NCBI RefSeq assembly: GCF_019052805.1
Contig: NZ_JAHQRJ010000001.1
Span: 1,798,001 to 1,862,000 of the forward strand
Source of the DNA: Noviherbaspirillum sp. L7-7A
GTDB lineage: Bacteria; Pseudomonadota; Gammaproteobacteria; Burkholderiales; Burkholderiaceae_D
Direction: 5' to 3'
DNA: 64,000 nucleotides
This document shows, piece by piece, positions 5,495 through 27,239 of the stretch (positions within the stretch are counted from its first letter, which is position 1; each line of letters begins with the position of its first letter). The position numbers and the translations under genes were made by a program. The notes under the pieces were generated by a model, which was given only the letters and a program-made list of their open reading frames with translations, ran no database searches and was not told the origin of the DNA.

Positions 5495-7092
5495 GGCAGC
5501 TCCGGAAGGGTCGTCAATGATTCCATGGTGACGCGCTGTTCCTCGCCTTCCTCCCCCAGCAACGTGGCGGTCTCGAAACGGTAGCTCGCCAGCGCCTGGG
5601 CAAGGCGACGGCGGGCATCGATCACGCCAAGTTCGTCGGCGGTAAGCCGCGCCTCGGCGGTGAGCAAGTCCAGCACTGTGGCCAAGCCAAGCCGGTACTT
5701 CTTGCGCTCGTCGACAAACACTTGTGTCTGCAGCCTTACCTGCTGCCGCGCCTGCTCCAGTTGCAGCGCCGCGCTCGCGACGCCGGCGCGCTGCACGCTG
5801 ACAGTGGCATGTGCCGCCTGGAGCAGGCCATCGAGCTCAAGCCGCGCCTGCTCGGCAAGCGCCGCGCGCTGTCTCACCAGGCCAGCCTGCGCATTGCCTT
5901 GCACCGGCAGCACGTAGGTCAGGCCGACCGAGGCGTTCAGGCCAGCCGCTGGCGCGTTCAGTGCCTGCCAGGCAGCCACCGCAGAACGATTTTCACGCAG
6001 ACCGCTATAGCCAACAGATAAGGTCAGGTCCAGTTGCGAGACCGGGTCACGCCGCGTTGCCTCATACAGAATCTCGGCAGCATCGACGCGGCGCTGCTGC
6101 GCCCTGACATCGAAGCGCGCCGCCAGCGCCGAGTGGGGCCACGGCCTGGACAGAGACTCCATGACGGCAGCAGGCAGTTCGGGAAAGTCATCGCTTGGCG
6201 CCGGCATCGACGCGTCAAGCCGCCCAGCCATTCCCATGGCCAGCATCAGTGTTGTGCGCGCTTCCACCAGCGACTGCTCGGCGGCGATCCGCAGGCCACG
6301 GTCACGCGCTACTTGTGCTTCGTATTGCAGCACATCAGCCTGGGGAATTTCATCACCCTTGGCCAGCCGGCGCGCGTCATCGAGCAACAGCAGAGAGCGG
6401 TTCTCAGAGAGCCGGCGAATTTCAAGCGCCTGCAGTACCGCCAGGTAATCCCAATAGGCATTGACGCTCCGATTGATCCGGGACGCGATGGTGTGCCGCA
6501 AAGTCATGTCCGTCGAGGCCAGCACCTGCTCCGCTGCCCGTTCCGCGGCAGTATTGAAACGGGTGCCGCTGCCCTTTTGGAGGGGAACAGTAAAGTTGAG
6601 CGCCACGGTACTGGTGGCCGGCGCAGTCAGCGACTGGATATTGTCACGCACCCGATTGATTCTGATAGTGGGCGCTACTGTTACACCGGAGCGCAGGCGG
6701 CTTGTTGCTCCCAGCGCATAGGAGGCACTATTCGTGTCAATCTGGCTTGCCGATGGGCTTTGCAACGCCTGCGGCAAGGGAGAGCGCGACTGCGCCAGTT
6801 CCACTCCGGTAGTAAACGCTGTGTCGAATTCACTGCGGGCGGCCCGGAGCTGGCCTTCACTGAGCATTAGCTGACGATTGGCGGCGCCTATTTGCGGCTC
6901 GTGCAATAGGGTCAGCCTGACCGCATCCATCAGCCTGCCAGTGAATTGCTGGCCTGCTGCAGAACCGCACGTGGCGAACATGACCAATGCGCTGAAAAGC
7001 ATGGCGCAGAGGCGAACGCCGCTGAAACGAAGTGCAATGCTCCGCAAGACGCGCAATGGATTATTTTTTATCGTTGAGCCAGCTAATTGCAT
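5491..7092 (-). CDS. TolC-family outer membrane efflux/secretion channel
   Basis: 533 residues. A signal peptide is predicted in the first 47 residues (hydrophobic stretch LCAMLFSALVMFA, cleavage near GSAAGQQ). The rest shows the two-fold repeated long-helix pattern of OEP/TolC proteins with Ala- and Gln-rich helices (RAARSEFDTAF, VLDLLTAEARLTADEL). It should trimerise to span the outer membrane and periplasm and complete the export path with the adaptor and ABC subunits. It is the first gene of the operon. An inverted repeat lies 58 bases upstream of its start. Confidence 0.9.
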   Translation of the reverse strand: MQLAGSTIKNNPLRVLRSIALRFSGVRLCAMLFSALVMFATCGSAAGQQFTGRLMDAVRLTLLHEPQIGAANRQLMLSEGQLRAARSEFDTAFTTGVELAQSRSPLPQALQSPSASQIDTNSASYALGATSRLRSGVTVAPTIRINRVRDNIQSLTAPATSTVALNFTVPLQKGSGTRFNTAAERAAEQVLASTDMTLRHTIASRINRSVNAYWDYLAVLQALEIRRLSENRSLLLLDDARRLAKGDEIPQADVLQYEAQVARDRGLRIAAEQSLVEARTTLMLAMGMAGRLDASMPAPSDDFPELPAAVMESLSRPWPHSALAARFDVRAQQRRVDAAEILYEATRRDPVSQLDLTLSVGYSGLRENRSAVAAWQALNAPAAGLNASVGLTYVLPVQGNAQAGLVRQRAALAEQARLELDGLLQAAHATVSVQRAGVASAALQLEQARQQVRLQTQVFVDERKKYRLGLATVLDLLTAEARLTADELGVIDARRRLAQALASYRFETATLLGEEGEEQRVTMESLTTLPELP

Positions 7093-13243: not shown

Positions 13244-13262
13244 CTTGGCGGAAAGGGTGGGA
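13244..13262. repeat. attL core (copy of tRNA-Ser 3' end)
   Basis: CTTGGCGGAAAGGGTGGGA, identical to 27289-27307. On the minus strand it holds the 3' 17 bases of tRNA-Ser including CCA. Bases outside the 19-mer differ on both sides, which fixes its limits. Confidence 0.88.
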
Positions 13263-13335
13263 CTTTGCACGAAGGAAAGATTTCGACCATATTCCACTAG
13301 CCTCCCTCTAGAAATTGAGCTTTTCAAAAGATAGC

Positions 13336-13359
13336 GTGTGTGGTAAATGTGTGTGGTTA
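13336..13359 (+). repeat. 24-bp arm-type repeat, left copy
   Basis: A 24-bp sequence made of two GTGTGTGGT units separated by AAAT and followed by TA. It is identical to 27216-27239. It lies between the attL core and the integrase start, where integrase arm sites are expected. Confidence 0.75.
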
Positions 13360-13380
13360 CTCCCTTTCCCCGATTGCCAC

Positions 13381-14658
13381 ATGACACTCCCTAAGTACCT
13401 TCAGAAACGTCGCCAAGGATTCTATGCAGTCCTTGAGATCCCCAAAGCACTACGCCAAATCTTTGATAACAAGGCACGGTTCATCCAGTCTCTGGAGACC
13501 AGAGAACAGCGAGTTGCTGAGAAGCGCCTTCCTATTGTCATTGCACGTTGGAAAGATCAGTTAGAGCAAGCCAAGGGGACCTATGATCCAGCCAAGGGGA
13601 TTCTCTGGGAGGTTATGGAGTGGCGTAAAGCAATCGAAACTGCACCGGACGATACCAGCAAGGAAATGGCTGAGAGTCTTGCCTATGACTGGGTAGAGAA
13701 GCTAGCGGACAAAGAAGGCGTCCCAGCAGCTCAGGAGGCTGTCGGAGTTATTTTTCATAACGTGCAGCCTCTCACAGCTAACTTCGATGACTGGACAGAA
13801 ACAATCAAGCACCTGAATCCCAAGACCCAGGCTTTGCAGAAGAACGCAGTGAAAGATCTCTGTGAGAACTTCAAGACTACTGCGGACATCGACAAGAACA
13901 GCGTAAAGAATTACCTCTCTATGCTGAGAACGGAGAAGGATCTCTCAGACAAGACTATTTCCCTGCGTCTAACATTCATCCGTAGCTTTATCAGCTATAT
14001 GGATGACAAGTACGGTACTACCCTGCTGCCTCTGTTCACAGTCAAGAATCTCGCTAGGACATCCACGGCTAAGACTGTCAAACAGAGAGCTTGGATTCCC
14101 TTTGCTGCTGAGGAAGTATCGAGGCTGCATCAGGCGGCACTCGACAAGAAAGACCAGCCTCTCGCTGATCTCATTGCCTGTGCTGCCTATACTGGCTGTC
14201 GGATTGAGGAACTGGGACAGGTTAAGACTGAGCATGTCTCAGAGCAAGGCCTCAGGATCGTTGATAGCAAGACTGCTGCCGGTATCCGGGAGGTTCCTCT
14301 CCACCCTGCCCTAAAGCCTCTCATGGACCGTCTGAGGGCCTCTAGCAAGGATGGATTCATTATCCCCGGCACAGATGAGGGTTCGTTTGGGAAACGCAGT
14401 GCTGCCCTGGGAAAACGCTTTGGGCATCTAAAGACCAAGATGGGCTTCGGAGAGCAGCATGTCTTCCACTCCATCAGGAAGACCGTAGTCAGCCAGCTAG
14501 AGCAAGCAGGAGTCAACGAGAACACCACGGCAGACATCGTAGGCCACGACAAACCACGAATTACCTACGGGCTTTATTCTTCAGGAGCCAGCCTCAAGCA
14601 AAAAGCTGAGGCCCTCTCTCAGGTAACCTATGGGGGATCTCTGGGGAATCCCGCTTAG
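13381..14658 (+). CDS. int: tyrosine recombinase / phage integrase
   Basis: 425 residues from the ATG at 13381. A TTG start at 13315 is open but would run through the arm repeat. N-terminal residues 1-45 (LPKYLQKRRQGFYAVLEIP) resemble the DUF6538 DNA-binding region; a core-binding SAM-like domain spans about 130-225. The catalytic set is complete: Arg274 (TGCRIEELGQ), His363 and Arg366 (FHSIRKTV), His389 (IVGHDK) and nucleophile Tyr399 (YGLYSSG). It should carry out integration into and excision from the tRNA-Ser 3' end. A terminator follows at 14.72 kb. All catalytic residues are intact, so the element may still be mobile. Confidence 0.95.
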   Translation: MTLPKYLQKRRQGFYAVLEIPKALRQIFDNKARFIQSLETREQRVAEKRLPIVIARWKDQLEQAKGTYDPAKGILWEVMEWRKAIETAPDDTSKEMAESLAYDWVEKLADKEGVPAAQEAVGVIFHNVQPLTANFDDWTETIKHLNPKTQALQKNAVKDLCENFKTTADIDKNSVKNYLSMLRTEKDLSDKTISLRLTFIRSFISYMDDKYGTTLLPLFTVKNLARTSTAKTVKQRAWIPFAAEEVSRLHQAALDKKDQPLADLIACAAYTGCRIEELGQVKTEHVSEQGLRIVDSKTAAGIREVPLHPALKPLMDRLRASSKDGFIIPGTDEGSFGKRSAALGKRFGHLKTKMGFGEQHVFHSIRKTVVSQLEQAGVNENTTADIVGHDKPRITYGLYSSGASLKQKAEALSQVTYGGSLGNPA

Positions 14659-14714
14659 CATCTGAACTTTCTCGGCGCGCCTCCGTCCAACAAGCGCAAC
14701 TCCCAAGAAGTATT

Positions 14715-14753
14715 AGCCCGCTCCCCCCTCCGAGGGTCTGCGGGCTTTCTTTT
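14715..14753 (+). terminator. integrase terminator
   Basis: AGCCCGC (14715-14721) pairs with GCGGGCT (14740-14746) and is followed by TTCTTTT. It lies 57 bases after the integrase stop. Confidence 0.75.
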
Positions 14754-14758
14754 GGTCT

Positions 14759-15076
14759 CTAGATCAAGCCTCGCCGGAAGGCTTCCGACATCAGCATCCA
14801 TCCCCCATTTACCTGAACTTCGTTGTAGCCCGTGTGATTCTCTACGCTGGTATTCGACCGCATAGGGAAGCCCTTGGCGAGGATCTGCTGGGTGGAATTT
14901 GGGCCAGGCATGGAGCCAATGAGATCCGCTGGGCCTACGAAGATGAACTTGTTCCCGATCATCCGTATAGCGCCAGCTATGACAAATTGCTTGATGGTGT
15001 TTCGTACTCCGTTGATGACCACAATGGTATCAATGCTTGCTGCTACTACTTCGGTATTTGGTGCGACGGTTGCCAT
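14759..15076 (-). CDS. island protein with shared two-part module, 105 aa
   Basis: No known family. Two parts recur in the two upstream genes: an N-terminal segment TIKQFVIAGAIRMIGNKFIF and a C-terminal segment TQQILAKGFPM ... GGWMLMSEAFRRGLI. It is the last gene of the leftward operon and starts 16 bases after its neighbour. No signal peptide or membrane helix is seen. Presence next to a gp14-like gene suggests a virion-associated or phage-related role, which is inference. Confidence 0.65.
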   Translation of the reverse strand: MATVAPNTEVVAASIDTIVVINGVRNTIKQFVIAGAIRMIGNKFIFVGPADLIGSMPGPNSTQQILAKGFPMRSNTSVENHTGYNEVQVNGGWMLMSEAFRRGLI

Positions 15077-15092
15077 GATTTTTCCTTGATTG

Positions 15093-15995
15093 TTAGACGT
15101 AGCCAGCCTTAGCTGCTGCCTTGAGGGTCATCCACATTCCATGGATACGGACCTGATCTACCTTGTCTACGGTCTTGGTTTCAAAGCCATTAGCCTGGAG
15201 GGTCTGGAGACTCGGTGCGGTGCTGTTCATAAACTTACTTACCAGTGGCTTCCAGCCTGACAGGTTGTTTTGGCGGATCTGCTGCTCCAGAGCTGCTCTC
15301 ATGTCACTCTTGCGATTCCGGCTGTACTCATAGAAATCGCTGAGATCCTCTTTGCCGATACCCAGCTTTGCTAGGTAGCTGTCGGCCTGAGCTTGATAGG
15401 CTCCCAAGATAAACTGAGCACGCTGCTGAACATCGCTGGGGTCTTTACCGGAACCCATAGCCAGCTTTCGGACTACTGCACCGAAGTCAACATCGCCAGT
15501 GAGGTGGGAAATACCTAGGGAGACTCCAGCTTCTAGGGTCTTGTCGTCAAAGACTTCCATAGCTGCATCCATGCCCGTCACAATTTCCTGGGGCATGCCC
15601 GGAGTGTCTGAGAGATCCTCTTGGACCTGAGGTGCATCCTCGATAGCATCAGCCAGTTCATAGCCGTTAGCCGTCTCCTTGAGCAGACCAGCGATCACAA
15701 AGCTCTTTACTTGGCCCTCAGCGCCAGCCAGGGAAACTATGGTGTCCTCGGTGATGGTCTGAGCGGGGAATCCATTAGGCTTCTTAGCGCCTGCCCTCCA
15801 GTCGCCTTCGACGTAGGGACTCAGATCGGTGCTGTTGATGCTATGGACCTTCTGGGAATCTTCATAGCGCATCGCGCCATCCCGGAAGGAGACAGAGGAG
15901 GTGGAGCCGGTATCACGGATCAGAGGGCCGGTTTGGGAGGTCTCCTGGGACTCTTCAGGAGCCACATAGGTGGAATAGCTGTGGTAATTGGACAT
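15093..15995 (-). CDS. island protein with shared two-part module and long middle domain, 300 aa
   Basis: A Ser/Thr-rich N-terminus (about 1-60) precedes GQVKSFVIAGLLKETANGYEL (about 95-115). An acidic, helical middle of about 150 residues follows, then the C-terminal SLQTLQANGFE ... GMWMTLKAAAKAGYV. The first and last segments align with those in the genes on both sides. Function unknown. The leftward operon continues 16 bases later. The composition (soluble, acidic, no cysteine) fits a structural or scaffold-like protein, but this is speculative. Confidence 0.65.
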   Translation of the reverse strand: MSNYHSYSTYVAPEESQETSQTGPLIRDTGSTSSVSFRDGAMRYEDSQKVHSINSTDLSPYVEGDWRAGAKKPNGFPAQTITEDTIVSLAGAEGQVKSFVIAGLLKETANGYELADAIEDAPQVQEDLSDTPGMPQEIVTGMDAAMEVFDDKTLEAGVSLGISHLTGDVDFGAVVRKLAMGSGKDPSDVQQRAQFILGAYQAQADSYLAKLGIGKEDLSDFYEYSRNRKSDMRAALEQQIRQNNLSGWKPLVSKFMNSTAPSLQTLQANGFETKTVDKVDQVRIHGMWMTLKAAAKAGYV

Positions 15996-16006
15996 TGTTG
16001 TTCTTT

Positions 16007-16321
16007 CTACTTGGTGAGCAATCCATGGTGGATCGCATTGGAAATTGAGCAGTAAGCGCCAGGAGCGACCATCACGAGGTCTTGGGCTGCTGTCCTGCCG
16101 GGAAGTACTTTGTAGCCTCGCCTCTCCAGTTCTCTCAAAGAGAAGGGATTAGGCTTGATGGGGACAGGATCATTGATGAGGGTCGGCCTGGTGGAGACTT
16201 GGAAGAACCGGGAGCCTACTTGCTGCACCATCCCATACCGACAAAAGCCTTGGACACTCATGGTTACCTGTCCGATGGTCAGCACAGACTCCAAGGTCGT
16301 GGAGTCAGGTAGCGGGAGCAT
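16007..16321 (-). CDS. island protein with shared two-part module, 104 aa
   Basis: VQGFCRYGMVQQVGSRFFQV (about 24-43) and SLRELERRGYK ... CSISNAIHHGLL (about 61-102) align with the two modules in the next two genes. No known family. Its start lies inside the end of the 58-residue gene upstream (17-base overlap), so translation is probably coupled. Confidence 0.6.
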   Translation of the reverse strand: MLPLPDSTTLESVLTIGQVTMSVQGFCRYGMVQQVGSRFFQVSTRPTLINDPVPIKPNPFSLRELERRGYKVLPGRTAAQDLVMVAPGAYCSISNAIHHGLLTK

Positions 16322-16481
16322 CTGGGGATTGCCTGGAGAGGTTCTTTAGACGAGCCTGTAGCTCAAGCTCCACCATCTGTTCGACAAGATCCCTGAGCGC
16401 ATAAGGATTGGTTGGGTTACCCATCCATCGGCGGAATGCTGCGGTCAGTTCCTTCTCACCTCTGGAGAGCTTGGGTCTCAT
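16305..16481 (-). CDS. small island protein, 58 aa
   Basis: Reads MRPKLSRGEKELTAAFRRWM and continues with a helical, Leu/Glu-rich segment to the TGA at 16305-16307. Its ATG overlaps the stop of the gp14-like gene (ATGA) and its end overlaps the next gene by 17 bases. Such tight packing on one strand supports a real gene. Charged and soluble; function unknown. Confidence 0.6.
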   Translation of the reverse strand: MRPKLSRGEKELTAAFRRWMGNPTNPYALRDLVEQMVELELQARLKNLSRQSPDAPAT

Positions 16482-16987
16482 TGCTTGGCCTTCTGGTAGG
16501 TGCTGTAGGCCCCGCCGATCTTCAGAGCAGCTCCAAGGTAGTCAGGAGCCTGAGGAGTCTTAAGCTGGCTCACCTGATTCACTGCGGAGGTCTGGACGTT
16601 CTCTCGCTGCATATTGAGCGCATTGACGTTATCAGTCAGGTTCGCTCCCACAGAGGTGTTGTAGCGCATCTGGGAGGCTTCAATCTCGCCTAGCAGGGAG
16701 TCCACAGACAACCCTGAGACACCATTCTCACCAGCCGATACCTTGGCTGTGGAGAGTGCCTTCTGTGCCGCTAGATCGTTCTGAAAGGTCTTCTCTCCTG
16801 CCTGCTGGGATACCTGCTGCTTCTGTACTTCAATCTGGCTAAGGTTCTGATTCCTCGCAATGATCGAGTTCTCACGCTGTTTGGCGTTGTACTTGTTCTG
16901 AGCTGAGGCTTGAGCACTCTGCTGGGCGACTCCTGCCGCTGCACTCGCTGCGGTGATCGCTAAGGTAATACTCGCTGGTTCACACAT
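16478..16987 (-). CDS. T7 gp14-like internal virion (ejection) protein
   Basis: 169 residues. It starts MCEPASITLAITAASAAAG, the hydrophobic start typical of podovirus internal core proteins, followed by a Gln/Ala-rich helical region (QSAQASAQNKYNAKQRENS). It carries the motif AGENGVSGLSVDSLLGEIE, which I recognise from the T7 gp14 / internal virion protein family. In T7 such proteins leave the capsid and help form the DNA-ejection channel. No other head, tail or packaging gene is seen in the element. Recognition is by motif pattern, not by a database search. Confidence 0.65.
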   Translation of the reverse strand: MCEPASITLAITAASAAAGVAQQSAQASAQNKYNAKQRENSIIARNQNLSQIEVQKQQVSQQAGEKTFQNDLAAQKALSTAKVSAGENGVSGLSVDSLLGEIEASQMRYNTSVGANLTDNVNALNMQRENVQTSAVNQVSQLKTPQAPDYLGAALKIGGAYSTYQKAKQ

Positions 16988-16990
16988 TAT

Positions 16991-17170
16991 TCATTCATCC
17001 ATTATTTCAGTACATGGCTCCCCAGGGAGAGGAGGAAGGGACCGCATCAAGTACTCATGGCGGTCTATGCGGCTGTCCACGCGACCTGCGAAGACATCTC
17101 TGAAGGAGTAAGGCAGGGTGTGATATTCCCTTGCCATGTCCCTCAACGTGGCTATCTCTTTGTTATTCAT
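16991..17170 (-). CDS. small island protein, 59 aa
   Basis: Reads MNNKEIATLRDMAREYHTLP then YSFRDVFAGRVDSRIDRHEY and ends at the TGA at 16991-16993, 3 bases before the gp14-like gene starts. Rich in Arg and Asp and predicted soluble. Spacing in the operon supports it. Function unknown. Confidence 0.55.
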   Translation of the reverse strand: MNNKEIATLRDMAREYHTLPYSFRDVFAGRVDSRIDRHEYLMRSLPPLPGEPCTEIMDE

Positions 17171-17236
17171 GGTTACAATACTTGAGTATCTAAGTCGGTA
17201 ATTCTTGTGCTCAAAAGCGTTAGAAATAGCGAGGAG

Positions 17237-17581
17237 CTACGCTGGCATGGACTGCATGCTGATCGCAGTTCCTGTGCAATTCCACGCAGGGGCGTAATGA
17301 CTTTCTGTGGATTCCTGAAGCATGCCTCCACGCTTTGCCTCCAGCATCATCCCCAGGAAAGCAAAGAGAGGGACTCGCGGATTGGCTTCCTGGTACTCAC
17401 TGAGGCTCCTGAATCCCAGATACTCACAGGCTTGAGCTGCTGTGATGTCTACCTTGTGGAGGTACTTGCGCATGTCTCTCGGAGTGCATGGGAGGGAGTG
17501 AGCGGGAGACCGTATGCCAGCATCCCGGAACAGGTCCGACCACAGGCTAGAGTCCAGCCAGGAGAGCTTGAGGGCCTCCAT
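17237..17581 (-). CDS. putative small DNA-binding-type island protein, 114 aa
   Basis: Starts at ATG 17581, 2 bases after the previous stop; a TTG at 17587 overlapping that stop is the alternative. The middle (VDITAAQACEYLGFRSLSEY followed by NPRVPLFAFLGMMLEAKRG) looks like a helix-turn-helix of the kind in small phage regulators, where an Ala-Cys-x-x-Leu-Gly turn precedes a recognition helix. The assignment is tentative. It sits third in the leftward operon. Confidence 0.55.
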   Translation of the reverse strand: MEALKLSWLDSSLWSDLFRDAGIRSPAHSLPCTPRDMRKYLHKVDITAAQACEYLGFRSLSEYQEANPRVPLFAFLGMMLEAKRGGMLQESTESHYAPAWNCTGTAISMQSMPA

Positions 17582-17583
17582 TC

Positions 17584-17781
17584 TCAATACTCACTGTCGA
17601 TACGTCCGCAGGGATAGACCACCATGCGGAGAGCAGTCGGATCTAGCTTGAATTTCACGTTCTTTGCTTCCTCCGACAAGAAGATGACTTGGGGAGCATC
17701 CTCAGTACGGATTGTGGGAGGGACCTGCACTTGGCCCAGCGGAGGAATCAGCAGGGATGCAAAGGGAGTTTCATCGTTCAT
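17584..17781 (-). CDS. small island protein, 65 aa
   Basis: Contains a Pro-rich start (LLIPPLGQVQVPPT) and a basic middle (SEEAKNVKFKLDPTALRMVV). No family recognised. It lies between the ribbon-helix-helix-like gene (46 bases upstream) and the HTH-like gene (2 bases downstream) on the same strand. Confidence 0.55.
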   Translation of the reverse strand: MNDETPFASLLIPPLGQVQVPPTIRTEDAPQVIFLSEEAKNVKFKLDPTALRMVVYPCGRIDSEY

Positions 17782-17827
17782 GTTGGTATGTGGTGAATGT
17801 TGGATAAAAAAAGAGAACCTCTAGGGT

Positions 17828-18106
17828 TCACTCTCGGTGCTTCATGAGGTGCTGTACCTCTTCCTTGACTTGCTCATCACTGAGCCTAGAGACCTGCCTC
17901 AGGTACAGATCCAAGGCCCTGCGGACGACTATGGACTGACTGGGATTCGTCGCTGTGACCATGCAGAGGCGCTGCTTGGTGGATTCGTACTGACGGAGGA
18001 TGCTTTCCGATACCTTGACTTGAAAGGTTTGGCCTCGACGACGACGAATGACAGTCCGGGGGACGAGCTGGGGAAATTCTTCCGCAGCTACTATGAGTCG
18101 GCTCAT
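17828..18106 (-). CDS. ribbon-helix-helix-like DNA-binding protein, 92 aa
   Basis: First gene of the leftward operon. AGGA precedes the ATG at 18106 by a suitable distance. A basic segment (RTVIRRRRGQTFQVKVSES) is followed by a strand and two helices (TFQVKVSESILRQYE, NPSQSIVVRRALDLYLRQV), the order of a ribbon-helix-helix fold. Such proteins often repress their own operon or act in plasmid and phage partition or relaxation. The large inverted-repeat block upstream (18.3-18.6 kb) could hold its targets. Role inferred. Confidence 0.6.
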   Translation of the reverse strand: MSRLIVAAEEFPQLVPRTVIRRRRGQTFQVKVSESILRQYESTKQRLCMVTATNPSQSIVVRRALDLYLRQVSRLSDEQVKEEVQHLMKHRE

Positions 18107-18820
18107 GGGGATTCCTGGGGATTGTGGTTAATGAAAGTAAAACGACAGAGCATCAAAGGCTCATAGACAAACTTTGTCGCATCCCTGAGGACATCTCTAG
18201 GTAGGCTCGATATTGAAGATACGGAAGACCTAAACCCCCTCAGACTCTCCCTAGCTGCTAGCGATATGGGCCAAGTGATTGGCTTCTTCGTATGCGGGGA
18301 AGTGAGGGCTATCTATAGATGACTCAGGGACCGACAATGAGATGGGAGACACTCACCCAGGTAGATAGGAATGAGTGTCTCTCAAGAGAGAACCTTAGGA
18401 TTGTTGTAGACAACACTAGGGGGATTAGTGGGAGGTCTACAAGATGTCTTAAGGTTTATCTCTGAGTATTACTCTCATTGGTTATTATTCAATGATTACT
18501 AACACTCAGAGTAAGTCCAAGGATTCCTCTAGAAATCTGTAGAAATCTTTGAGTAAAACCCTCCAGTCATTGGAGCTTTGTCGGCATCAATGAGTGGTCC
18601 GGGACTAACTGACTGTGACCCTCAAACACAGTCCCCGGTTGAACCTGCATTCATCTCCCGGCCAGTGATCTGGCAAGTCGGGGGATGGTGCGTCTTGAAT
18701 CTTGGAGAGAAGCTTGGCATTGAATCCATTAGCGGTATTCAAGCAAGGCATCTCTCAGAGCCTAGCCTTCAGATCCGCTAGGAGCATCCACAGTGGGATG
18801 TCGGGGATCGTCCGGGTTCG
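18107..18820. other. non-coding block with four strong inverted repeats
   Basis: About 700 bases with no convincing gene. Inverted repeats: GAGACACTCA / TGAGTGTCTC at 18346-18381 (10 bp, 16-nt loop); TGTTGT-AG-ACAACA at 18402-18415; a nested AT-rich pair at 18460-18511; GACTGTG / CACAGTC at 18611-18633 (9-nt loop). Such density beside a repeat array suits an origin, packaging or transfer site, or a structured RNA. It is also where the promoter of the leftward operon must lie. Confidence 0.6.
18460..18511. repeat. nested AT-rich palindrome
   Basis: Outer arms CTCTGAGT (18460-18467) and ACTCAGAG (18504-18511); inner arms TCATTG (18475-18480) and CAATGA (18490-18495) around GTTATTATT. All arms are perfect. 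The symmetry allows a cruciform or a long two-stage hairpin. Confidence 0.65.
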
Positions 18821-18828
18821 GCTCTTGT

Positions 18829-19454
18829 CTTCTATAGTGCAGGAACATGGTCCACATCAGCCAGTGGCGGTCTGTGTCGGCTCATGTCCTTCTATAATAC
18901 GTAGGTCAAAAATTGGCCTTCTTCTATAGTACGTCTTCTGATCTTGCAGACTGCCAGAAGCGGTCAGTCGGCGGTGTTCTTTTATAGTATGGGAACATGG
19001 TGTGGCTGCTGTTCTCCTATAGTGCGTCTACATGCCATCGACGCTGTTCTTCTATAGTGGGTGGAATAAACTTTGGCTGTCTTCTTCTATAGTGCAACAA
19101 CATGTCTTGGCTGCTGTTCTTCTATAGTGTCTGGTTCAAATTTCGGCCATCTCTTCTATAGTGGCATGATGGGAAAGCGGCAGTTTTTTCTATAGTGCAT
19201 GGGTCAAGCTCGGGCCTTTGCTTATCTCATCTATAGTGCGTAGGTCAAAACTCGGTGCCTTCTTCTATAGTGCAGGGATAAAACCACAACTGCCAGTAGC
19301 GGTCAGTTGCGGCTCTTTCTTCTATAGTGCGACTTTCAAACTGTTGGCTGCTATCTTCTATAGTGCAGGAGTCAATCGCTGCTCTTTCTATAGTACGTCT
19401 ATAGAAACCAGCGGCTGCCATGAGCAATCAGTCGGCTGTGTTCTTCTATAGTGC
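18829..19454 (-). repeat. array of 16 degenerate direct repeats, SP6-promoter-like on the minus strand
   Basis: Plus-strand core TTCTTCTATAGTGC. The ten-base cores (TCTATAGTGC or variants) start at 18831, 18891, 18923, 18981, 19016, 19051, 19086, 19121, 19155, 19189, 19230, 19264, 19321, 19357, 19387 and 19445. Nine intervals are 34-36, four are 57-60; the others are 30, 32 and 41. A weaker conserved part precedes each core (TYGGCTGYTG). The long intervals carry an extra segment like CTGCCAGAAGCGGTCAG (18951-18967, 19290-19306, 19415-19431). Read leftward the core is GCACTATAGAAGAA. No open frame uses the array. Confidence 0.88.
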
Positions 19455-19466
19455 GTGGATAGAACC

Positions 19467-19658
19467 TCAGGCCCAGTCCACCACTGCCTGTCGGTTCAGA
19501 AACCAGACATCCCAAGAGCTTCTCTTGGGGTCTCGCTGAACCACGGGCTTCCAGTCGAAGAGGTGTGACTGGGTTAGGTGGATATGGAATTTTCCCAGCT
19601 TCAGGAAGGTGCCGTGGGAGGTATCGAATTCAAAGGTCTTGCCAAACTTGATGTTCAC
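19467..19658 (-). CDS. small island protein with GTG start, 63 aa
   Basis: The GTG at 19658 is chosen because AGGAG (19667-19671) lies 8 bases upstream; a longer frame to 19742 has no such site. The protein alternates short beta-type segments (VNIKFGKTFEFDTSHGTF, KLGKFHIHLTQ) and ends WDVWFLNRQAVVDWA. It ends 12 bases from the repeat array and is transcribed toward it. Family unknown. Confidence 0.55.
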   Translation of the reverse strand: MNIKFGKTFEFDTSHGTFLKLGKFHIHLTQSHLFDWKPVVQRDPKRSSWDVWFLNRQAVVDWA

Positions 19659-19836
19659 GCTAACTGCTCCTGGAAAGTTTATTGTTGTTGTCGTTGAAGA
19701 CAGGAAACAAGTTAACAGAAGCTTTACTTGCTGAAAAGGCATGACTGTTTCATGTTTTCAACTGTTCCAGTAGAGAAAACTTTAACTATTTGATTTCCAT
19801 GAGGAACTTTCGATTCCCGTATGGAAAAATATATTT

Positions 19837-20457
19837 TCACTTGCTGTTGTTCTTGAGTCTTAGAGCCAGCCTTGACAGAGTTGAGCGGCTGCATCCAGTC
19901 GCAGAGACAATATGGCTCCAGCTATCTCCGTTAGAGAGCATCCTCATGATTGCTTCATTACGCTCAACGTCCTCTTTCCGCCCCTTGTAGCCTCCTTCAG
20001 CCTTGAGCTTCTCAATACCCTGCTGTTGCCTCCTGCGACGGTCGGTGTAGTCCTTACGGGCTATTGCTGCAAGCATGTCCAGCATCATCCCGTTGAGAGC
20101 CTCCAGCATCCTCGCTGTGGTCTCATCGCTGTTAGTAGCCAGCATCCATGAGGTAGGGAGATCCAGAGCCACCACGCGGACTCTACGGGCCTGGAGTTCA
20201 GTCTTGAGCTTGAGCCAGTCCTCAGCATTTAAACGGGATAGGCGGTCTACCTGCTCTATTAGGAGGATGTCCCCAGGTTGGCTATCTGAGAGCAGACGGA
20301 ACAGCTCTGGACGCTTTAGGGAGGCTCCAGATTCATTCTCAGGGTAGAAGCCTGCAATCCTCAATCCACGGTCACCAGCGAATGCTTGGAGATCCTCCTT
20401 GGCTCTGCTTGCGTCTTGTTCCTTGGTTGATGCTCTGAGGTATGCACGGACTAACAT
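19837..20457 (-). CDS. serine recombinase, resolvase/invertase type
   Basis: 206 residues. The N-terminal catalytic domain has Ser10 (YLRASTKEQ), the conserved Arg region GDILLIEQVDRLSRL and a long E-helix (MLEALNGMMLDMLAAIARKDY). A short C-terminal helix-turn-helix follows (SWSHIVSATGCSRSTLSRL). This is the small resolvase/invertase group rather than a large phage integrase. It may resolve multimers of an excised or replicating form or invert a segment. Direct and inverted repeats lie just upstream of its start and may be its sites. Confidence 0.9.
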   Translation of the reverse strand: MLVRAYLRASTKEQDASRAKEDLQAFAGDRGLRIAGFYPENESGASLKRPELFRLLSDSQPGDILLIEQVDRLSRLNAEDWLKLKTELQARRVRVVALDLPTSWMLATNSDETTARMLEALNGMMLDMLAAIARKDYTDRRRRQQQGIEKLKAEGGYKGRKEDVERNEAIMRMLSNGDSWSHIVSATGCSRSTLSRLALRLKNNSK

Positions 20458-20467
20458 TGGGAACTTC

Positions 20468-20560
20468 CAGTTCGTTTTGGATAGTTCGCAATGTATCAGT
20501 TCGTTTTGGGTCGTGTAAAGAACTATATAGAACCAGTTCTATTGATGAGTTCACTAGTTC
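20468..20560. repeat. direct and inverted repeats upstream of the resolvase (possible res site)
   Basis: CAGTTCGTTTTGG occurs at 20468-20480 and 20497-20509. An inverted pair GAACT ... AGTTC follows within the next 50 bases, around TATATAGAACC. Resolvases commonly act at such clustered sites next to their gene. Role inferred from position. Confidence 0.4.
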
Positions 20561-20679
20561 CCTTGAGGTATACCCAAAAAGCATTGAAGAAATTGATTTA
20601 GACTGCCTTGATAAGGGTGGGAACGATTCTCATTTAGTGTCTTCCAAACGGCAGGGAGCCACCTCTTATCGGAGGAGTT

Positions 20680-20907
20680 ATGGCTAAACGAACAATTCAA
20701 GAAGATATGCTTGATGGGATTGAATCAAACATTGAGGTAACAGCAAGGCACATCCGTTGGCTAAAGAAAGAGCTTGCTTCGCTAAGGATAAACGATGGGC
20801 CTGTAGAACAGCGCAGAGTAATACGTCAGCAACTCACTACTTTGGAAGACACCTTGCACCTTCTGGAGGTTCGCCGGGTGTATGCGTTAGAGGTGACGGT
20901 ACATTAG
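20680..20907 (+). CDS. small coiled-coil protein, 75 aa
   Basis: GGAGGA lies just before the ATG at 20680. The protein is almost wholly helical: HIRWLKKELASL, then RRVIRQQLTTLEDTLHLLEV. The second helix pattern (LED-x-L-x-LL-x-x-R) recurs in the 73-residue protein at 21.8 kb. No known family. Soluble; may form a dimeric coiled coil. Confidence 0.6.
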   Translation: MAKRTIQEDMLDGIESNIEVTARHIRWLKKELASLRINDGPVEQRRVIRQQLTTLEDTLHLLEVRRVYALEVTVH

Positions 20908-21046
20908 AGGTCCTCCGAATCGTCCCCAGGTAGGCCAGAGGACCCTACCGGGGGGAATGCCAAGCCCCTTACCTCGGGGTGAGGTCTCAGATTTTGGAGA
21001 AAAATCATTTCCCACTTATTGATGTTCTTGAGTTTCGCTAGCGTTG
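20908..21046. other. intergenic hairpins between convergent genes
   Basis: CCCCAGGTAGG (20924-20934) pairs with CCTACCGGGGG (20944-20954) around a 9-base loop. A second, weaker stem follows around CCTTACCTCGG / GGTGAGG. They separate the rightward coiled-coil gene from the leftward 117-residue gene and could end both transcripts, although no long T run follows. Confidence 0.4.
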
Positions 21047-21400
21047 CTAGGCCATTACCGAAAATTGCTTGAAGTGCCCTTTGACATTGAAGAACCGTGC
21101 AAACTTGGGATCTTTTGCAGCATCGGTTTTGAGAAGTGATTCACTTCTCTGTAGAACTCCATCAAATACTCTGCAAATCATGCCCTTTTCGTCGTAAGCA
21201 GATCGCTCTTGTAAGAACTTGTACCAAGATATCTGCACAACATTTCGATTTTTGCCGTTATAGCTAATGACCGCACAGGTGTCGCCCGCCAGAAGGTCTG
21301 TCGCCAATTTCGCTTGGTGTCCGTGGCTATCTAAATCGTAGAAGGCATCTGGACCGTAAAGTTTTTTATGGTCTCTATTGTGGCTATTAAGAAAATACAT
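21047..21400 (-). CDS. island protein of unknown function, 117 aa
   Basis: Starts at ATG 21400, with GAGG 7 bases upstream; a TTG at 21412 is a weaker alternative. The sequence opens MYFLNSHNRDHKKLYGPDAF and continues with SHGHQAKLATDLLAGDTCAV, a strand-rich region and MICRVFDGVLQRSESL. The layout (short strands, a Gly-Asp turn, W-Y near the centre) resembles small beta-barrel PUA/EVE-type folds, but this is a guess. No family is assigned. Confidence 0.55.
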   Translation of the reverse strand: MYFLNSHNRDHKKLYGPDAFYDLDSHGHQAKLATDLLAGDTCAVISYNGKNRNVVQISWYKFLQERSAYDEKGMICRVFDGVLQRSESLLKTDAAKDPKFARFFNVKGHFKQFSVMA

Positions 21401-21792
21401 ATAGATCCTCAAAGGACCAAAAGTTTCGAAGTTGAAACATTAGCACAAGTGTGTCACCAAGGAAACTTAAAGAAAGTTGTTGCTGGTGTTGCATACATGA
21501 TGCTGACCATCAAACTTAAAAGTATTTTCTTTTTATCATCTAAAAGCGCGGAGACCGGAGCTAATCCCGGTCTTATTACGGTTGGCGGCAGAGGTGCGTC
21601 GTACCGTGATCCCAACCCTTTCAGTGCCTTAGCAAGCACACCGCAGCGGGATTGTAGACGAAATACTGTACGAAAAACCAGTATTCGATGATCTATTGGC
21701 CCTTCAGCGGTGCTCTTGTCGATCCGTAGCTGCGCAGCCGGAACCATACCAGCACGTTGCATTCCCAATACCTAGGTTATGCGGAGAGGGAT
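21401..21792. other. intergenic region with two inverted repeats
   Basis: About 390 bases without a convincing gene between divergent genes. AGACCGG (21552-21558) pairs with CCGGTCT (21567-21573). AATACTG (21662-21668) pairs with CAGTATT (21679-21685) and looks like an operator for the rightward gene. Confidence 0.45.
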
Positions 21793-22014
21793 ATGGCTGG
21801 GACATTGGTTTATCAACTAAACGTCTATAGGCTTGCACGCGACATAGCTATCTTGGAAGAACGTATCCGGGTCATGTCAGAAATACTAGCGAGTATTCCC
21901 ATAGATACCGCTAGGACTAGACATGGGCTATTCCGTGTACAAATAGAGATGCTAGAGGACAGCTTGAAGCTCCTGCGACTACGTTATGCAATGGAAGCCA
22001 GCCGAATACGCTGA
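21793..22014 (+). CDS. small coiled-coil protein, 73 aa
   Basis: The start at 21793 is set by GGAGAGGG immediately upstream; an upstream TTG at 21757 is rejected. Helical throughout: VYRLARDIAILEERIRVMSE then RHGLFRVQIEMLEDSLKLLR. The second helix matches the 75-residue protein at 20.7 kb (LED-x-L-x-LL-x-x-R), and the lengths agree, so the two are probably paralogues. Function unknown. Confidence 0.6.
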   Translation: MAGTLVYQLNVYRLARDIAILEERIRVMSEILASIPIDTARTRHGLFRVQIEMLEDSLKLLRLRYAMEASRIR

Positions 22015-22259
22015 GTATGCTCCCAGATCTTTTCGAAGTAGCCTGGCGGCCCATAGAGAAGTCCCACGCCCTATACACGAGGTGCCCTCTGGGATGTTTC
22101 CGAAAAATCTTTTTAATGTTTCTTTGCCTATCAAATGCTCGTCTTCCCCTAGACCTTGCCGCTGTGGTCGCAAGGTAAATGCCCTCACCAAACTAGATAA
22201 AAACTACGGTTTGCGTCTCTGGGCGGTAAAATCTCGGAAGACAATCTTTAGCGTTCTTC

Positions 22260-23897
22260 ATGACACAAAATCGCGCGACATCAGTAGTCCACAAGAGCGG
22301 CTCCAAACATTCCCGAAAATATCGAATCAGCAACAACACCTTTGGCTATTTGATAATTCTTACAGCATTCGCGCTTTCGGTATTTATTCGCCTACCTGAC
22401 TTCAAACATACGACTGGGTTGCAAAACCTTGAAGCTACCTACCACGCATTATTGACGGTTCATGCACTTAGTACACAACCGCTTAGCGATAGCAAGCTTC
22501 TTCCTATCGTCACACAGGCAAATAAGTACGATAAATTTATTCCATGGGGTGCCGCACTCCCCATGTCGAATGGAAACTTTGTCTACACTTCATTTCCACC
22601 CTTAGGCTTTATTGCTCCGTTTGTCTTTTTTAAGATTTTGCATTTGGAGCCAACAATTAAGGGGCTAATTGCATTTAACTGCTTATTAGGACTGGCAAGC
22701 GCTTTTTTACTTTACCACTTGATCGTTAGATTGTTGTTGATAAACGGGGCTAAGCAGGCTCAAGCAATCTTCTGTTCTGCTATAGGAGTTGGATGTTTAA
22801 TTTTTTCTCGAGAGGGACTTGCCTCCTTTGGCATCGTTTATTGGAGCCACTCTCTACAGCAGTTATTTCTGATTGCCCAACTTATTGCATTACTTAATGT
22901 TTTAGGAAAGTCAATAGACAAGACGCCCCTAGGTGTACGCATAGGATTTTTATCTTTTATTTCTTTTCTAACTGCGTACACAGAGTGGAGTGGCTTAATT
23001 GGAAACGCAATTATTTGCCTACTTATAGCTTCAAGATGGTTATCTTTGCCATCCAGAGCACGCCGAATCTTAATCATTGCAATTGCAGGTTCGACTGCGG
23101 CTGCAATAATATTGATTATGACTCACCTTTTTTTGGCTTTGGGCATCAATGAAGCGTTCACTTCTCTTCTTGCAAGGTTTGGTGACCGAAACGTCAGAAC
23201 GGCGGGAGCAAGCTTTAGTTATTTGATACAAGGCTACAATGTTTCCTATGGGGCCCTCATTCCAGTTGTTCTCGCAATGCTTGTATGGAGCTCATACTTT
23301 TACCCTATTCAGCAAAAAGTAGACGAACAACATCGTACTACGAGTTCTTTTATCATCCTCGCGGCGTGTGCCCCACTCCTAGAAAACATCTTATTGCTGC
23401 AACATTCAATAGAGTTCTCATTTGATCGTCTCAAGTTCGCCGTTCCACTTGCAATTGTTGTTTCTTCGCTTCTTGCTCGTATGACTATGCAAGGCAATAG
23501 GCTGCTAGCAACAATATTTGTCGGACTGATAATCATCGCTTTCAGTCAAAATTTTAAAACTTATTATGCACATAATTTGTTTTATGCCGACTGGCGTGAA
23601 CATGATAATGTGAATCGGATCTTAAAAGATAAAGTTGCTGCTACTGTTGATTTGTCTTGCAGCATTCTTGCCACTAACTTTGATGTGCGAGGTTACTCTA
23701 ATTTGCTATTTGGTAGAGGCATTTACGAATATTCCTCCCCAGAAAAGCTAAGAACCAAAATGATTGAACTTAATGCTTGTGCAGGAATATGGTTAGAGCA
23801 GAGACGTCTTTATCCAAATATCCCTTCATTTTTACAGGCAACAATCTATCGCCCCGACCAACCACTTGTCGTGATTCAAGGCAATTCCCGGCCATAG
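22260..23897 (+). CDS. multi-pass membrane protein, glycosyltransferase-like (545 aa)
   Basis: About ten or more hydrophobic segments, starting FGYLIILTAFALSVFIRLPD near residue 30. The first periplasmic loop carries an acidic/aromatic pattern (NLEATYHALLTVHAL, FPPLGFIAPFVFF) like the GT39/GT-C fold. A soluble C-terminal part of about 100 residues follows the last helix. The gene is much richer in AT than the host genes. GT-C proteins on phages and islands often modify O-antigen using lipid-linked sugar. No partner gtrA/gtrB flippase or transferase is seen here. No clear ribosome-binding site precedes the start. Confidence 0.65.
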   Translation: MTQNRATSVVHKSGSKHSRKYRISNNTFGYLIILTAFALSVFIRLPDFKHTTGLQNLEATYHALLTVHALSTQPLSDSKLLPIVTQANKYDKFIPWGAALPMSNGNFVYTSFPPLGFIAPFVFFKILHLEPTIKGLIAFNCLLGLASAFLLYHLIVRLLLINGAKQAQAIFCSAIGVGCLIFSREGLASFGIVYWSHSLQQLFLIAQLIALLNVLGKSIDKTPLGVRIGFLSFISFLTAYTEWSGLIGNAIICLLIASRWLSLPSRARRILIIAIAGSTAAAIILIMTHLFLALGINEAFTSLLARFGDRNVRTAGASFSYLIQGYNVSYGALIPVVLAMLVWSSYFYPIQQKVDEQHRTTSSFIILAACAPLLENILLLQHSIEFSFDRLKFAVPLAIVVSSLLARMTMQGNRLLATIFVGLIIIAFSQNFKTYYAHNLFYADWREHDNVNRILKDKVAATVDLSCSILATNFDVRGYSNLLFGRGIYEYSSPEKLRTKMIELNACAGIWLEQRRLYPNIPSFLQATIYRPDQPLVVIQGNSRP

Positions 23898-23995
23898 CTA
23901 GCTGAGTATCATAAAATAAATATCGTTACGGCCCACTAGTTCTGAGATCTACTGCTGCTATTGCCATTACTGCTTTTTAATTAAGTACCACATTT

Positions 23996-25360
23996 ATGTT
24001 TAAGACATCAACATTGCGATTTCCGTATAACAACGATACTCAAAAATATTTTACAGCGATTGCAGTTGGGATTTTCATCCTGGGCTTCACAGCTTCAATA
24101 TATGCATTTTACCCTGGGTGGATGAGCGTTGACTCTGCTGTCCAGTACTACGAGGCTAGACATAATCACTATAGTGATTGGCAGCCTGTTCTGATGGCAT
24201 GGTGGTGGTCTTTATTAAACAAGATATATGAGGGACCAGCGTTATTTTTGATCCAAAATGTCGCGACATACTGGACGTCCCTATTAATTCTATATTTCGC
24301 GACTAGGCGGATAATAGGCCGCACTGCCGTTCTTTTTTTACTTGCAGGATTTATTCCAGGACTTCTTTTCCCTTTAGGGCAAATCTGGAAAGATGTTGTA
24401 TTTGCAGTGCTGTTAGTACTTTGCTTTTCCAATGCACTTCGCATTGATAGTTTGAAAAAAACACCATCTTGGCTTGAGCGCGCATTCTTTTTTCTCGCAT
24501 TAACCTTAGCTTATGGCGTCAAGACCAACGGCATCACAGCCATTCCTTTTGTTATCCTTTATTGGATACATGCAGAACAGCCTATTTGGAGCAAATTAAA
24601 AAAGCTCGGAGTTACGTTATGCGTGACAATTGGAGTAGTAAGTCTTGCAAGTGTAGCAGTGCCCCAAAAGAATATTACACGCGCTTATGGTATGCAATAC
24701 ACGCAAAGCTATGATTTACTAGCCATTTCGGTTGCGACTAAGACCAACCTTCTGCCAGACTATATCAACAATAAAATTAAGCCACTCAACAAACCGCTAG
24801 CTGATTACTATTATATAGGATCGAATAATCTACTTTTCTACAATACAGCGGCGGGAGATTTGCGAACGACTAATGCGCAGGACGCTGATGACCTTAAAGA
24901 AAAATGGATAGCCGCAATTAAAGCACACCCTCTTACCTATATTAAGCATAGGACAAAGGTATTTGCGTCACTTCTTAGAATTGGAGAAAAAACCCCTGCT
25001 TGGGTCGCACAAGCTAAGATTGTAGATACGAGCATTCCATTCGTTTTCAAGGCTAACGCTTTTTCTGATGCATTAAAATTCACGGAAAGTAGCCTTCCCC
25101 AATTTTACTACCCTTGGATCTATTGCCTGACCTTATTGCTCACTCTAATTTTCTGGAGATTTCTATTGCCTTCGCTCAAAGCATTTTATTTGACGTTACA
25201 AATAAGCGCTTGGGCTTTCGTTATCCCGCATTTCATTATTACACCAGCTTCTGACTACAGGTACTTGTATTACATGTACTTCTGCGCTGTAGTTGCTGTA
25301 ATAATTTCTATTGGGAGCGTGTCAATGCGCTTACAAAAAAAACTATATAGCCAAACTTAA
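23996..25360 (+). CDS. multi-pass membrane protein, glycosyltransferase-like (454 aa)
   Basis: About nine to eleven membrane segments. The first loop reads FYPGWMSVDSAVQYYEARHN then HYSDWQPVLMAWWWSLL, matching GT-C-type proteins in which an Asp-Ser and Asp-x-Gln-Pro motif follows the first helix (DUF6020-like group). A large soluble loop (about residues 225-330) precedes the last helices. It lies 98 bases after the previous gene on the same strand, with the same AT-rich composition. Likely surface-sugar modification; substrate unknown. Confidence 0.65.
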   Translation: MFKTSTLRFPYNNDTQKYFTAIAVGIFILGFTASIYAFYPGWMSVDSAVQYYEARHNHYSDWQPVLMAWWWSLLNKIYEGPALFLIQNVATYWTSLLILYFATRRIIGRTAVLFLLAGFIPGLLFPLGQIWKDVVFAVLLVLCFSNALRIDSLKKTPSWLERAFFFLALTLAYGVKTNGITAIPFVILYWIHAEQPIWSKLKKLGVTLCVTIGVVSLASVAVPQKNITRAYGMQYTQSYDLLAISVATKTNLLPDYINNKIKPLNKPLADYYYIGSNNLLFYNTAAGDLRTTNAQDADDLKEKWIAAIKAHPLTYIKHRTKVFASLLRIGEKTPAWVAQAKIVDTSIPFVFKANAFSDALKFTESSLPQFYYPWIYCLTLLLTLIFWRFLLPSLKAFYLTLQISAWAFVIPHFIITPASDYRYLYYMYFCAVVAVIISIGSVSMRLQKKLYSQT

Positions 25361-25447
25361 AGTGGCATAGGCAAACAGCACAACTAAGGGAATAAGAACG
25401 ACCAAGCAAAATATAGCCACTGCCGACCAAAGCATTTGTTTTTTCAT
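25343..25447 (-). CDS. possible 34-aa membrane peptide
   Basis: MKKQMLWSAVAIFCLVVLIP followed by more hydrophobic residues, one predicted helix with a basic start. It overlaps the end of the rightward membrane-protein gene by 18 bases, and no good ribosome-binding site is seen. Could be chance. Confidence 0.2.
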   Translation of the reverse strand: MKKQMLWSAVAIFCLVVLIPLVVLFAYATLSLAI

Positions 25448-25562
25448 TACAATTAGAGAAAGTTAAATGATTTTAAAATTGACTTTTAACTGTATTTTAA
25501 CATAGTCAAATCACAGCTTTGCATCTGGACTCTAACAAACACAACAGGGCCGGTAGTCCCCT

Positions 25563-26021
25563 TTAGGTGAGGTAGCCAAAATTATTGGTCCATGCTCCGA
25601 AAGTTAGTGACTCCTTACGAAAGGCTTCTGCCCACTGTTCTTCAAAAAACACAGGTACTGCAACCGTCAGATATGTGAGCGCAGGTAAGTCACCTACAGC
25701 ACGCAGATCAAGACGATCCCTGACCGAAAGGCCGTACGCTAACAACGCATTAGTTACTTCTTTTTCATCAGCACTGTTCAGCCCCACTAGGATCACTCTG
25801 GCCTCATAGCTCGGCCTTGGGTCGGCGGGAGTGCATATCGCTTCTACCGGCAAAGAGCCGCATTCGTAGATTCCAGAAGGACGCTCGTAACGGACACCCT
25901 TGACTATCAAAGTCGTGCTGTCATAGAGGGATAGCGGATCATTTTGAGAACTACCCCCACAGCCCGCTAAAAGCAATGCAAGTCCTACCAAAGCATAGAA
26001 CCGAAGTATAAACCGTACCAT
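25563..26021 (-). CDS. lipoprotein of unknown function, 152 aa
   Basis: Signal peptide with lipobox LLAGC (Cys about 21). The mature part has three further Cys (YECGSL, EAICTP among them), which could form a disulfide. No family recognised. Small lipoproteins are common extra genes on prophages, where some block superinfection; this role is inferred from location only. Confidence 0.7.
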   Translation of the reverse strand: MVRFILRFYALVGLALLLAGCGGSSQNDPLSLYDSTTLIVKGVRYERPSGIYECGSLPVEAICTPADPRPSYEARVILVGLNSADEKEVTNALLAYGLSVRDRLDLRAVGDLPALTYLTVAVPVFFEEQWAEAFRKESLTFGAWTNNFGYLT

Positions 26022-26239
26022 TGCTCGTCTTTCTATAAAGAATTATTGCTAATGTTACAGGAAAGACGGTAGGGCCTGGAGTGGATCTTGGGAGGTACTG
26101 CGGGTGGCACGGGGAAAAGCCTGCGCCTTATATGCGAGGTGGGCTTTCACATTTTTGCAATGAAATTATTTGTAATAACCGCAATTCGTTGTTATGAAGA
26201 GACAAAATAACCAACAAATACAGAAAAATGACTTGTGTT

Positions 26240-26259
26240 TACTGTATGGAAACACAGTT
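26240..26259 (+). promoter_or_regulatory. LexA (SOS) box-like operator
   Basis: TACTGTATGGAAACACAGTT contains CTGT-N8-ACAG with the exact spacing of the proteobacterial SOS box, and its left half TACTGTAT equals the E. coli consensus. It lies 27 bases upstream of the start at 26286. A TATAAT lies at 26276-26281. Confidence 0.6.
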
Positions 26260-26285
26260 TGATGCGATGAGGAAATATAATGTGA

Positions 26286-27206: not shown

Positions 27207-27215
27207 GGGTGGAAT

Positions 27216-27239
27216 GTGTGTGGTAAATGTGTGTGGTTA
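27216..27239 (+). repeat. 24-bp arm-type repeat, right copy
   Basis: Identical to 13336-13359 and in the same orientation, 49 bases inside the right attachment core. An inverted pair GTTAAGAA (27236-27243) / TTCTTAAC (27270-27277) overlaps it and is absent at the left end. Confidence 0.75.

Follow-up and report, generated by a model that had tools for sequence, protein, structure and literature searches.

We describe a 14.1-kb integrative element, at 13244–27307 of the window (the whole 64,000-nucleotide stretch of Noviherbaspirillum sp. L7-7A DNA analysed here), in which a lone gp14-family ejection protein gene lies in an operon whose other products have no function-naming match, and 16 T7-class promoter-like sites point into that operon. 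With a probability of about one half, we read it as an integrative satellite of T7-class podophages that would be induced by the helper's RNA polymerase and would supply its own gp14. The doubt is mostly about how the element works, not about its anatomy.

An att-bounded element without recognisable virion genes other than gp14

A phage satellite is expected to be an att-bounded integrated element with its own integrase and to lack capsid, tail and packaging genes. The element is integrated at a tRNA-Ser gene between 19-bp att repeats and encodes a tyrosine integrase (Table 1). When we searched it by phmmer with 21 podovirus proteins, no virion gene besides gp14 was recognised, gp14 of Bordetella phage vB_BbrP_BB8 (BB8) being the sole query to match, and the genome has no T7-type portal. 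Thirteen queries were BB8 proteins named from its record; the other eight, which we named by eye, came from two further gp14-family loci (L035 and L038). The partners of gp14 were likewise absent from the element in phmmer searches with BB8 gp15 and gp16, for which we took the BB8 internal proteins C and D; an element gp14 would therefore have to fit the helper's core. No replication, capsid or packaging genes are recognisable in the element, so that the lone gp14 gene in an integrative element without capsid genes, as originally predicted, is borne out, and some protein without an assigned function could still have a capsid, tail or packaging role. Seven cargo proteins gave no Pfam match at E 0.01 and no PADLOC match. 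The large cargo proteins at 22260–25360 are possibly involved in surface-sugar modification, which is a guess.

Table 1 Features of the element, in window coordinates
Feature	Position	Strand	Remarks
attL, 19-bp direct repeat CTTGGCGGAAAGGGTGGGA	13244–13262		exact copy at 27289–27307
Tyrosine integrase, start codon uncertain	13315–14658	+	PF00589 1e-10; PHROG 1 1.8e-36
24-bp direct repeat inside left end, possible integrase arm site	13336–13359		putative role; exact copy at 27216–27239
105-aa protein	14759–15076	-	dN/dS 0.19; short module shared with 300-aa and 104-aa proteins
300-aa protein, marker used to find related elements	15093–15995	-	dN/dS 0.19
104-aa protein	16007–16321	-	dN/dS 0.15
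58-aa protein	16305–16481	-	4-nt overlap with gp14
gp14-family internal virion (ejection) protein, 169 aa	16478–16987	-	PF24072 E 3.3e-34; PHROG 805; dN/dS 0.16
59-aa protein	16991–17170	-	no function-naming match
116-aa protein, predicted helical	17237–17587	-	40% identical counterpart in Duganella element
65-aa protein	17584–17781	-	no function-naming match
Intrinsic-terminator-like hairpin between 92-aa and 65-aa genes	17815–17829	-	consensus scan
92-aa protein, weakly RHH/CopG-like	17828–18106	-	PF01402 0.063, below cut-off; 88/92 identical in second element
16 co-oriented T7-class promoter-like sites, consensus CACTATAGAAGAA	18830–19453	-	pointing into operon
Serine resolvase/invertase	19837–20457	-	PF00239 1.8e-23
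Cargo region	20680–27206		includes two large proteins, 22260–23897 and 23996–25360, hydrophobic by eye
attR	27289–27307		at 3' end of tRNA-Ser(cga) 27291–27381 (-)

A gp14-family protein by sequence

The gp14 ORF fills its span completely on the minus strand, a strand that the original prediction had not given; frame 1 of the plus strand there has internal stops. Its 169-aa product begins MCEPASITLAITAASAAAG and holds AGENGVSGLSVDSLL, the start and motif quoted at the outset. Family membership, proposed from the letters, was confirmed by profile search: residues 1–164 align to positions 1–165 of the 187 in Pfam model PF24072 (T7_gp14; E 3.3e-34, 118.9 bits against a cut-off of 27), and PHROG 805, 'internal virion protein', matched at 6.4e-29. 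The best phage match was 'internal protein B' of BB8 (41.7% identity over 80% of gp14, 2e-17). At E 1e-5 the relatives comprised seven phage records from five phages, six of them of Rhizobium/Mesorhizobium phages and one of BB8; the records of BB8, RHEph21 and RHEph01 are classified as Autographiviridae. In an alignment with the BB8 and RHEph01 proteins the window gp14 is full length, and the homologue in a second element of the same chromosome (the sister element, below) has an extra N-terminal stretch that is absent from these three proteins. The 19-residue hydropathy peak was 1.24 for the window protein, 1.35 for the sister, 2.01 for BB8, 1.65 for RHEph01 and 1.26 for SP6. Judged by its sequence, and not by its gene context, the window protein is a PF24072 member.

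Gene context is what sets the two Noviherbaspirillum loci apart from others of the family. PF24072 occurred in 9 of 245 sampled family genomes, this one included, 7 of them over the cut-off. All eight other gp14-family loci (six over the Pfam cut-off) carry other podovirus structural genes, each matching 3 to 8 of the 21 query proteins, a count that includes self-matches of L035 and L038, which had supplied some of the queries; the two own loci matched gp14 only. Another genome of the same family holds a T7-like prophage (G109:C1:2477763-2510000; L034, L086), whose genes include those for RNA polymerase, portal, capsid and tail.

Operon proteins besides gp14

As had been proposed, the operon otherwise consists of small proteins without known function: none of the eight other ORFs had a function-naming match in Pfam or PHROG, and none of the nine operon proteins matched PADLOC at E 0.01. 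The sole match of the 116-aa protein was PHROG 21723 (5.3e-4), annotated as of unknown function, and the 59-aa protein matched PHROG 2436 (0.058), which carries the same annotation. Only sub-cut-off Pfam models were found for the 92-aa protein (Transglut_N 0.0078, RHH_1 0.063), and only sub-cut-off or unannotated models, at E 0.13 and above, for the 300-aa protein.

An AlphaFold2 model of the 300-aa protein (mean pLDDT 67) has a helical middle at ~80–90 and strand-helix parts on both sides; neither Foldseek nor VIA-align found a significant fold match for it. The idea, formed by eye, that this protein is a T7 gp9-type scaffold was rejected, with a profile comparison probability of 4–7%, nothing in Foldseek at E <= 0.001 and a best VIA-align Z of 5.3 over 79 residues (rmsd 3.6). 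A terminase-like or HTH fold was also considered for the 116-aa protein, which had no Foldseek match at E <= 0.001 and a best Z of 3.3 among mixed matches that included Aca1. The 105-, 104- and 300-aa proteins (14759–16321) share a short strand-helix module that may serve all three for docking. In shuffle tests (2000 shuffles, 17 pairs, raw p values), 105 against 300 gave p ~0.001 and 105 against 104 p ~0.0005; the signal was weaker for 104 against 300 (p 0.027), and 105 showed none with the more distant relative of the 300-aa protein in stretch L032 (p 0.70).

The evidence for the terminator is weak, since nine such hairpins were seen in the region against 5.1 expected. The hairpin falls in a 54-nt stretch (from 17800; L003 14337) that is identical in the sister element. 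We claim no host sigma-70 promoters between 14600 and 20700, where four were seen against 4.2 expected.

A promoter-like array with a T7-class core

The phage-promoter-like array that had been noted was recovered, upstream of the operon, as 16 co-oriented sites, counted with a looser pattern read within the array region. The exact 10-mer TTCTATAGTG occurs 10 times against 0.02 expected, and sites with at most one mismatch to it number 14 against 1.08 expected, all 14 inside the array. Eleven of the 15 spacings are 30–41 nt (7 of these 34–35) and four are 57–60 nt. Conservation is strongest over TATAG and continues to AAGAA, and the array also holds longer repeats. In the sister element, one such site is present at the equivalent position.

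The 12-mer CACTATAGAAGA occurs nine times in the window, always on the minus strand, and also lies at two promoter-like sites of phage SP6, which we take to be SP6 promoters (the SP6 record, L052, lists no promoter features). The array thus has the asymmetric core, matching the T7/SP6 promoter core, by which a T7-class promoter would be recognised, with the presumed promoter status of the SP6 sites as part of that comparison. Scored with a weight matrix from 11 SP6 sites, the two best matches in the window fell in the array (15.0 and 13.1), as did 7 of the top 20; scores reached 12.4 in three mononucleotide shuffles and 14.2 with the reversed matrix, and the site of the sister element did not stand out. 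On the upstream side of the core the array appears to match SP6 poorly, so the cognate polymerase, if any, probably belongs to the T7 class but differs in specificity. The term 'T7-like' in the original prediction is therefore too broad: the array has a promoter core that also occurs in SP6, but an upstream region that matches SP6 poorly.

The array pattern occurred in one of 288 family genomes, its own (the sample included four of the genus, this one among them), and had no match in viral contigs. The core CACTATAG was absent from the BB8 genome, from 33 kb of RHEph01 and from 20 kb of G109.

Related elements and selection

A second, 7.6-kb element lies ~128 kb away on the same chromosome (L003 9654-17299; G000:C1:1939654-1947299), in tRNA-Ser(gga) and with 21-bp repeats. 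It preserves the order of the window element (integrase, 105, 300, 104, 58, gp14, 59, 116, 65, 92) and has a different resolvase. Between the two elements, dN/dS by a simple counting method was below 1 in all nine operon genes (0.15–0.43), which is not the pattern of dead genes. For gp14 it was 0.16, with dS 1.49 and 121 of 169 aligned residues identical; seven other operon genes gave 0.15–0.19 and the 116-aa gene 0.43, the genes 59, 116, 65 and 92 having few changes. A TGA inside the PF24072 match to the sister gp14 is the gene's own stop, the match having overrun the gene end by three codons. Synonymous divergence is uneven: dS is 0.09–0.16 in the block 59-116-65-92, 0.59–1.49 from gp14 to 105 and 1.07 in the integrase. 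With one block near-identical and the other diverged, the two elements have probably exchanged segments.

In related genomes, where the original prediction had called for a search for islands with the same operon, one element has much of the operon and no gp14. This element, 7.0 kb long, is in Duganella margarita FT109W (G276, L009 1818-8797), at a tRNA-Thr gene and with 20-bp repeats. It has counterparts of 92, 116, 59, 58, 104 and 300, an integrase, a resolvase and a ParB-like gene whose product has a weak PADLOC match (PD-Lambda-5_A, 0.0026). Raw shuffle p values (2000 shuffles) were ~0.0005 each for 116, 104, 58 and 92, and 0.02 for 59, a weak match. Neither a gp14 match nor the CACTATAG core is present, so neither defines the wider element family. 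The counterparts of the 59-aa (weak match) and 58-aa genes adjoin each other with no gp14 between them, from which gp14 seems either to have entered an operon already in place or to have dropped out of it; by this comparison of sequences, the gene seems to be an optional module at that junction. The Duganella element also holds an exact 15-nt repeat, CCCCCACACTAGGAT, at L009:4216-4230 and 5014-5028, co-oriented with its operon, which may be a T7-class promoter that differs in specificity; we regard it as a lead only.

Relatives of the 300-aa protein are rare. They occurred in 4 of 294 genomes of a family sample (its own, G276 at near full length, and G050 and G172 in part), in 3 of 399 of an order sample (its own, G320, and G467 over 60 residues) and in 1 of 369 of a class sample (its own), the three samples overlapping; a scan of genome contigs gave a single locus, that of D. 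margarita FT109W. The 116-aa protein was found in 2 of 284 sampled genomes, its own and G276. Next to or in a comM-like gene, L032 (6000-12910) encodes a large serine recombinase, a resolvase and a protein related to the 300-aa one at 26% identity. This element lies near a set of genes that is TnsABC-like by eye, and has two sites of the GTAAA-CCC-CAC type, a T7-like promoter lead only, and AT-rich repeats ~34 nt apart at 6453–6557 with a fourth copy at 6609. A distant relative of the 300-aa protein (L010:9607-10611, in G050) lies near a contig end among host-like ORFs, with no gp14 match in the stretch.

Search for a helper

Searches of the Noviherbaspirillum genome for the T7-type RNA polymerase (PF00940) and portal (PF12236) found neither; BB8 and G109, added as controls, were positive, and 14 control genomes gave no match. 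Among stored stretches of viral contigs, a first promoter pattern matched 31, once each and with no promoter set, and a looser core gave a single site in 29 of these 31 and two sites in the other two (L081 and L082). With a second pattern, among the 80 of 102 stretches listed, none had more than one full core, and four had three same-strand copies of the shorter CACTATAG. The 300-aa protein had no relatives in phages, plasmids or viral contigs, and the 116-aa protein none in phages or viral contigs, both scans of viral-contig proteins having used short peptide patterns; there is hence no sign of packaging in these collections.

A proposed satellite of T7-class phages and its alternatives

In T7, gp14 belongs to the internal core, is ejected first and makes the outer-membrane pore (PMC8954989). 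P22 virions function with Sf6 gp7, which is 83% identical, and can thus incorporate a small ejection protein of foreign origin; with Sf6 gp16 alone P22 particles assemble yet fail (PMC10883804). By analogy with these accounts, a gp14 from a satellite could either work in helper particles or ruin them. We propose that infection by a T7-class helper whose promoters have an SP6-type core would bring in a single-subunit RNA polymerase that recognises the array. Host transcripts would stop at the hairpin after the 92-aa gene, and helper polymerase starting from the array would read through it into 65-116-59-gp14-58-104-300-105. Satellite gp14 would then be assembled with, or instead of, helper gp14 in the internal core, and particles packaging satellite DNA would have a pore protein chosen by the satellite. 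With its 16 sites, the array may in addition divert helper polymerase from the helper's genes or serve as an origin that depends on the helper. A broader version is tentative and, taken as a whole, rather doubtful: the elements would form a new satellite family specialised on T7-class podophages, for which the helper RNA polymerase is both trigger and drained resource, and whose optional gp14 module brings its own outer-membrane pore, tuning or poisoning genome delivery and not capsid size. By arithmetic only, elements of 14.1, 7.6 and 7.0 kb could be packaged as 3x, 5x and 6x concatemers of a helper genome of ~40 kb.

The same array and gp14 would also suit a phage-triggered defence island, in which helper RNA polymerase switches the operon on, gp14 or other proteins poison particles or open membranes, and the array soaks up polymerase, to the benefit of the host or the exclusion of the phage instead of transfer. 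That T7 gp14 forms pores (PMC8954989) and that a mismatched ejection protein, Sf6 gp16 in P22, can assemble yet kill particles (PMC10883804) agree with such a role. Compact att-bounded integrase elements at three tRNA genes, however, look built for mobility, and PADLOC recognised none of the nine operon proteins at E 0.01. We consider defence somewhat unlikely as the whole explanation, and it is not mutually exclusive with a satellite. A different account of the array, in which it serves as operator or iteron repeats for the element's own 92-aa RHH-like protein or for a replication protein and gp14 is cargo unrelated to any T7-class helper, draws on the 6-bp palindrome CTATAG in the core, on the longer repeats and on the near-identity of the 92-aa protein in two elements that both have the motif (88 of 92 residues). 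It is improbable given that conservation is asymmetric and extends to AAGAA, where transcription would begin, that the exact 12-mer CACTATAGAAGA recurs at the SP6 promoter-like sites, and that all 16 sites point into an operon that holds a T7-class virion gene.

Least probable, and in our judgement very unlikely, is a remnant of a T7-like prophage with gp14 as the last virion gene left. In its favour, BB8, a T7-like phage of a Bordetella host, has an integrase, and the G109 prophage comes from the same family with its RNA polymerase, portal, capsid and tail genes. Against this, the two own gp14 genes are dS ~1.5 apart and both intact at dN/dS 0.16, the 59-aa and 58-aa counterparts are adjacent in Duganella without gp14 (the 59-aa match being weak, p 0.02), and neither fragments of other virion genes nor decayed ORFs were found. 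The original prediction had itself named a decayed deletion remnant as the outcome that would overturn it; the second intact element, the low dN/dS and the precise att repeats all speak against one.

If the satellite reading is true, phages with an RNA polymerase of their own can fall prey to satellites, and the step that a satellite targets can be genome delivery instead of capsid size; with a cultured host this reading is directly testable.

Comparison with known systems

Over nearly its full length the window protein is homologous to T7 gp14 and BB8 internal protein B; in phages the gene has gp15 and gp16 as neighbours within a complete virion cluster, whereas the window gene stands alone. 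The presumed SP6 promoters share the core CACTATAGAAGA with the array, yet the array appears to fit them poorly upstream and packs 16 copies into 0.6 kb, where those of the phage are spread over its genome. In titles and the opening parts of abstracts from the open-licence literature, we found no satellite of T7-class phages, none with T7-class promoters and none with its own ejection protein. The E. coli PICI EcCIMP1 is similar in being induced by vB_EcoP_Kapi1, a podovirus by name, and differs in having a temperate helper; the available part of its description mentions neither T7-class promoters nor an ejection gene (PMC11773190).

The PICMI satellites of Vibrio are 6.1 kb long, have a virulent phage as helper, and have their DNA packaged as a concatemer of helper genome size (PMC10803314). 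Like the window element, they are small and integrated, with few genes and no capsid-remodelling genes (PMC10803314). They lie beside fis and have genes for three core proteins that serve excision and replication, whereas the window element sits at tRNA-Ser and not next to fis, and has gp14, a T7-class promoter-like array and an operon without function-naming matches; the PICMI main text uses none of the terms T7-like, podovir and Autographivi (PMC10803314). Among known satellites, minimalist ones such as PICMIs are thus the closest in design, and PICMIs differ from the window element in integration site and promoter logic.
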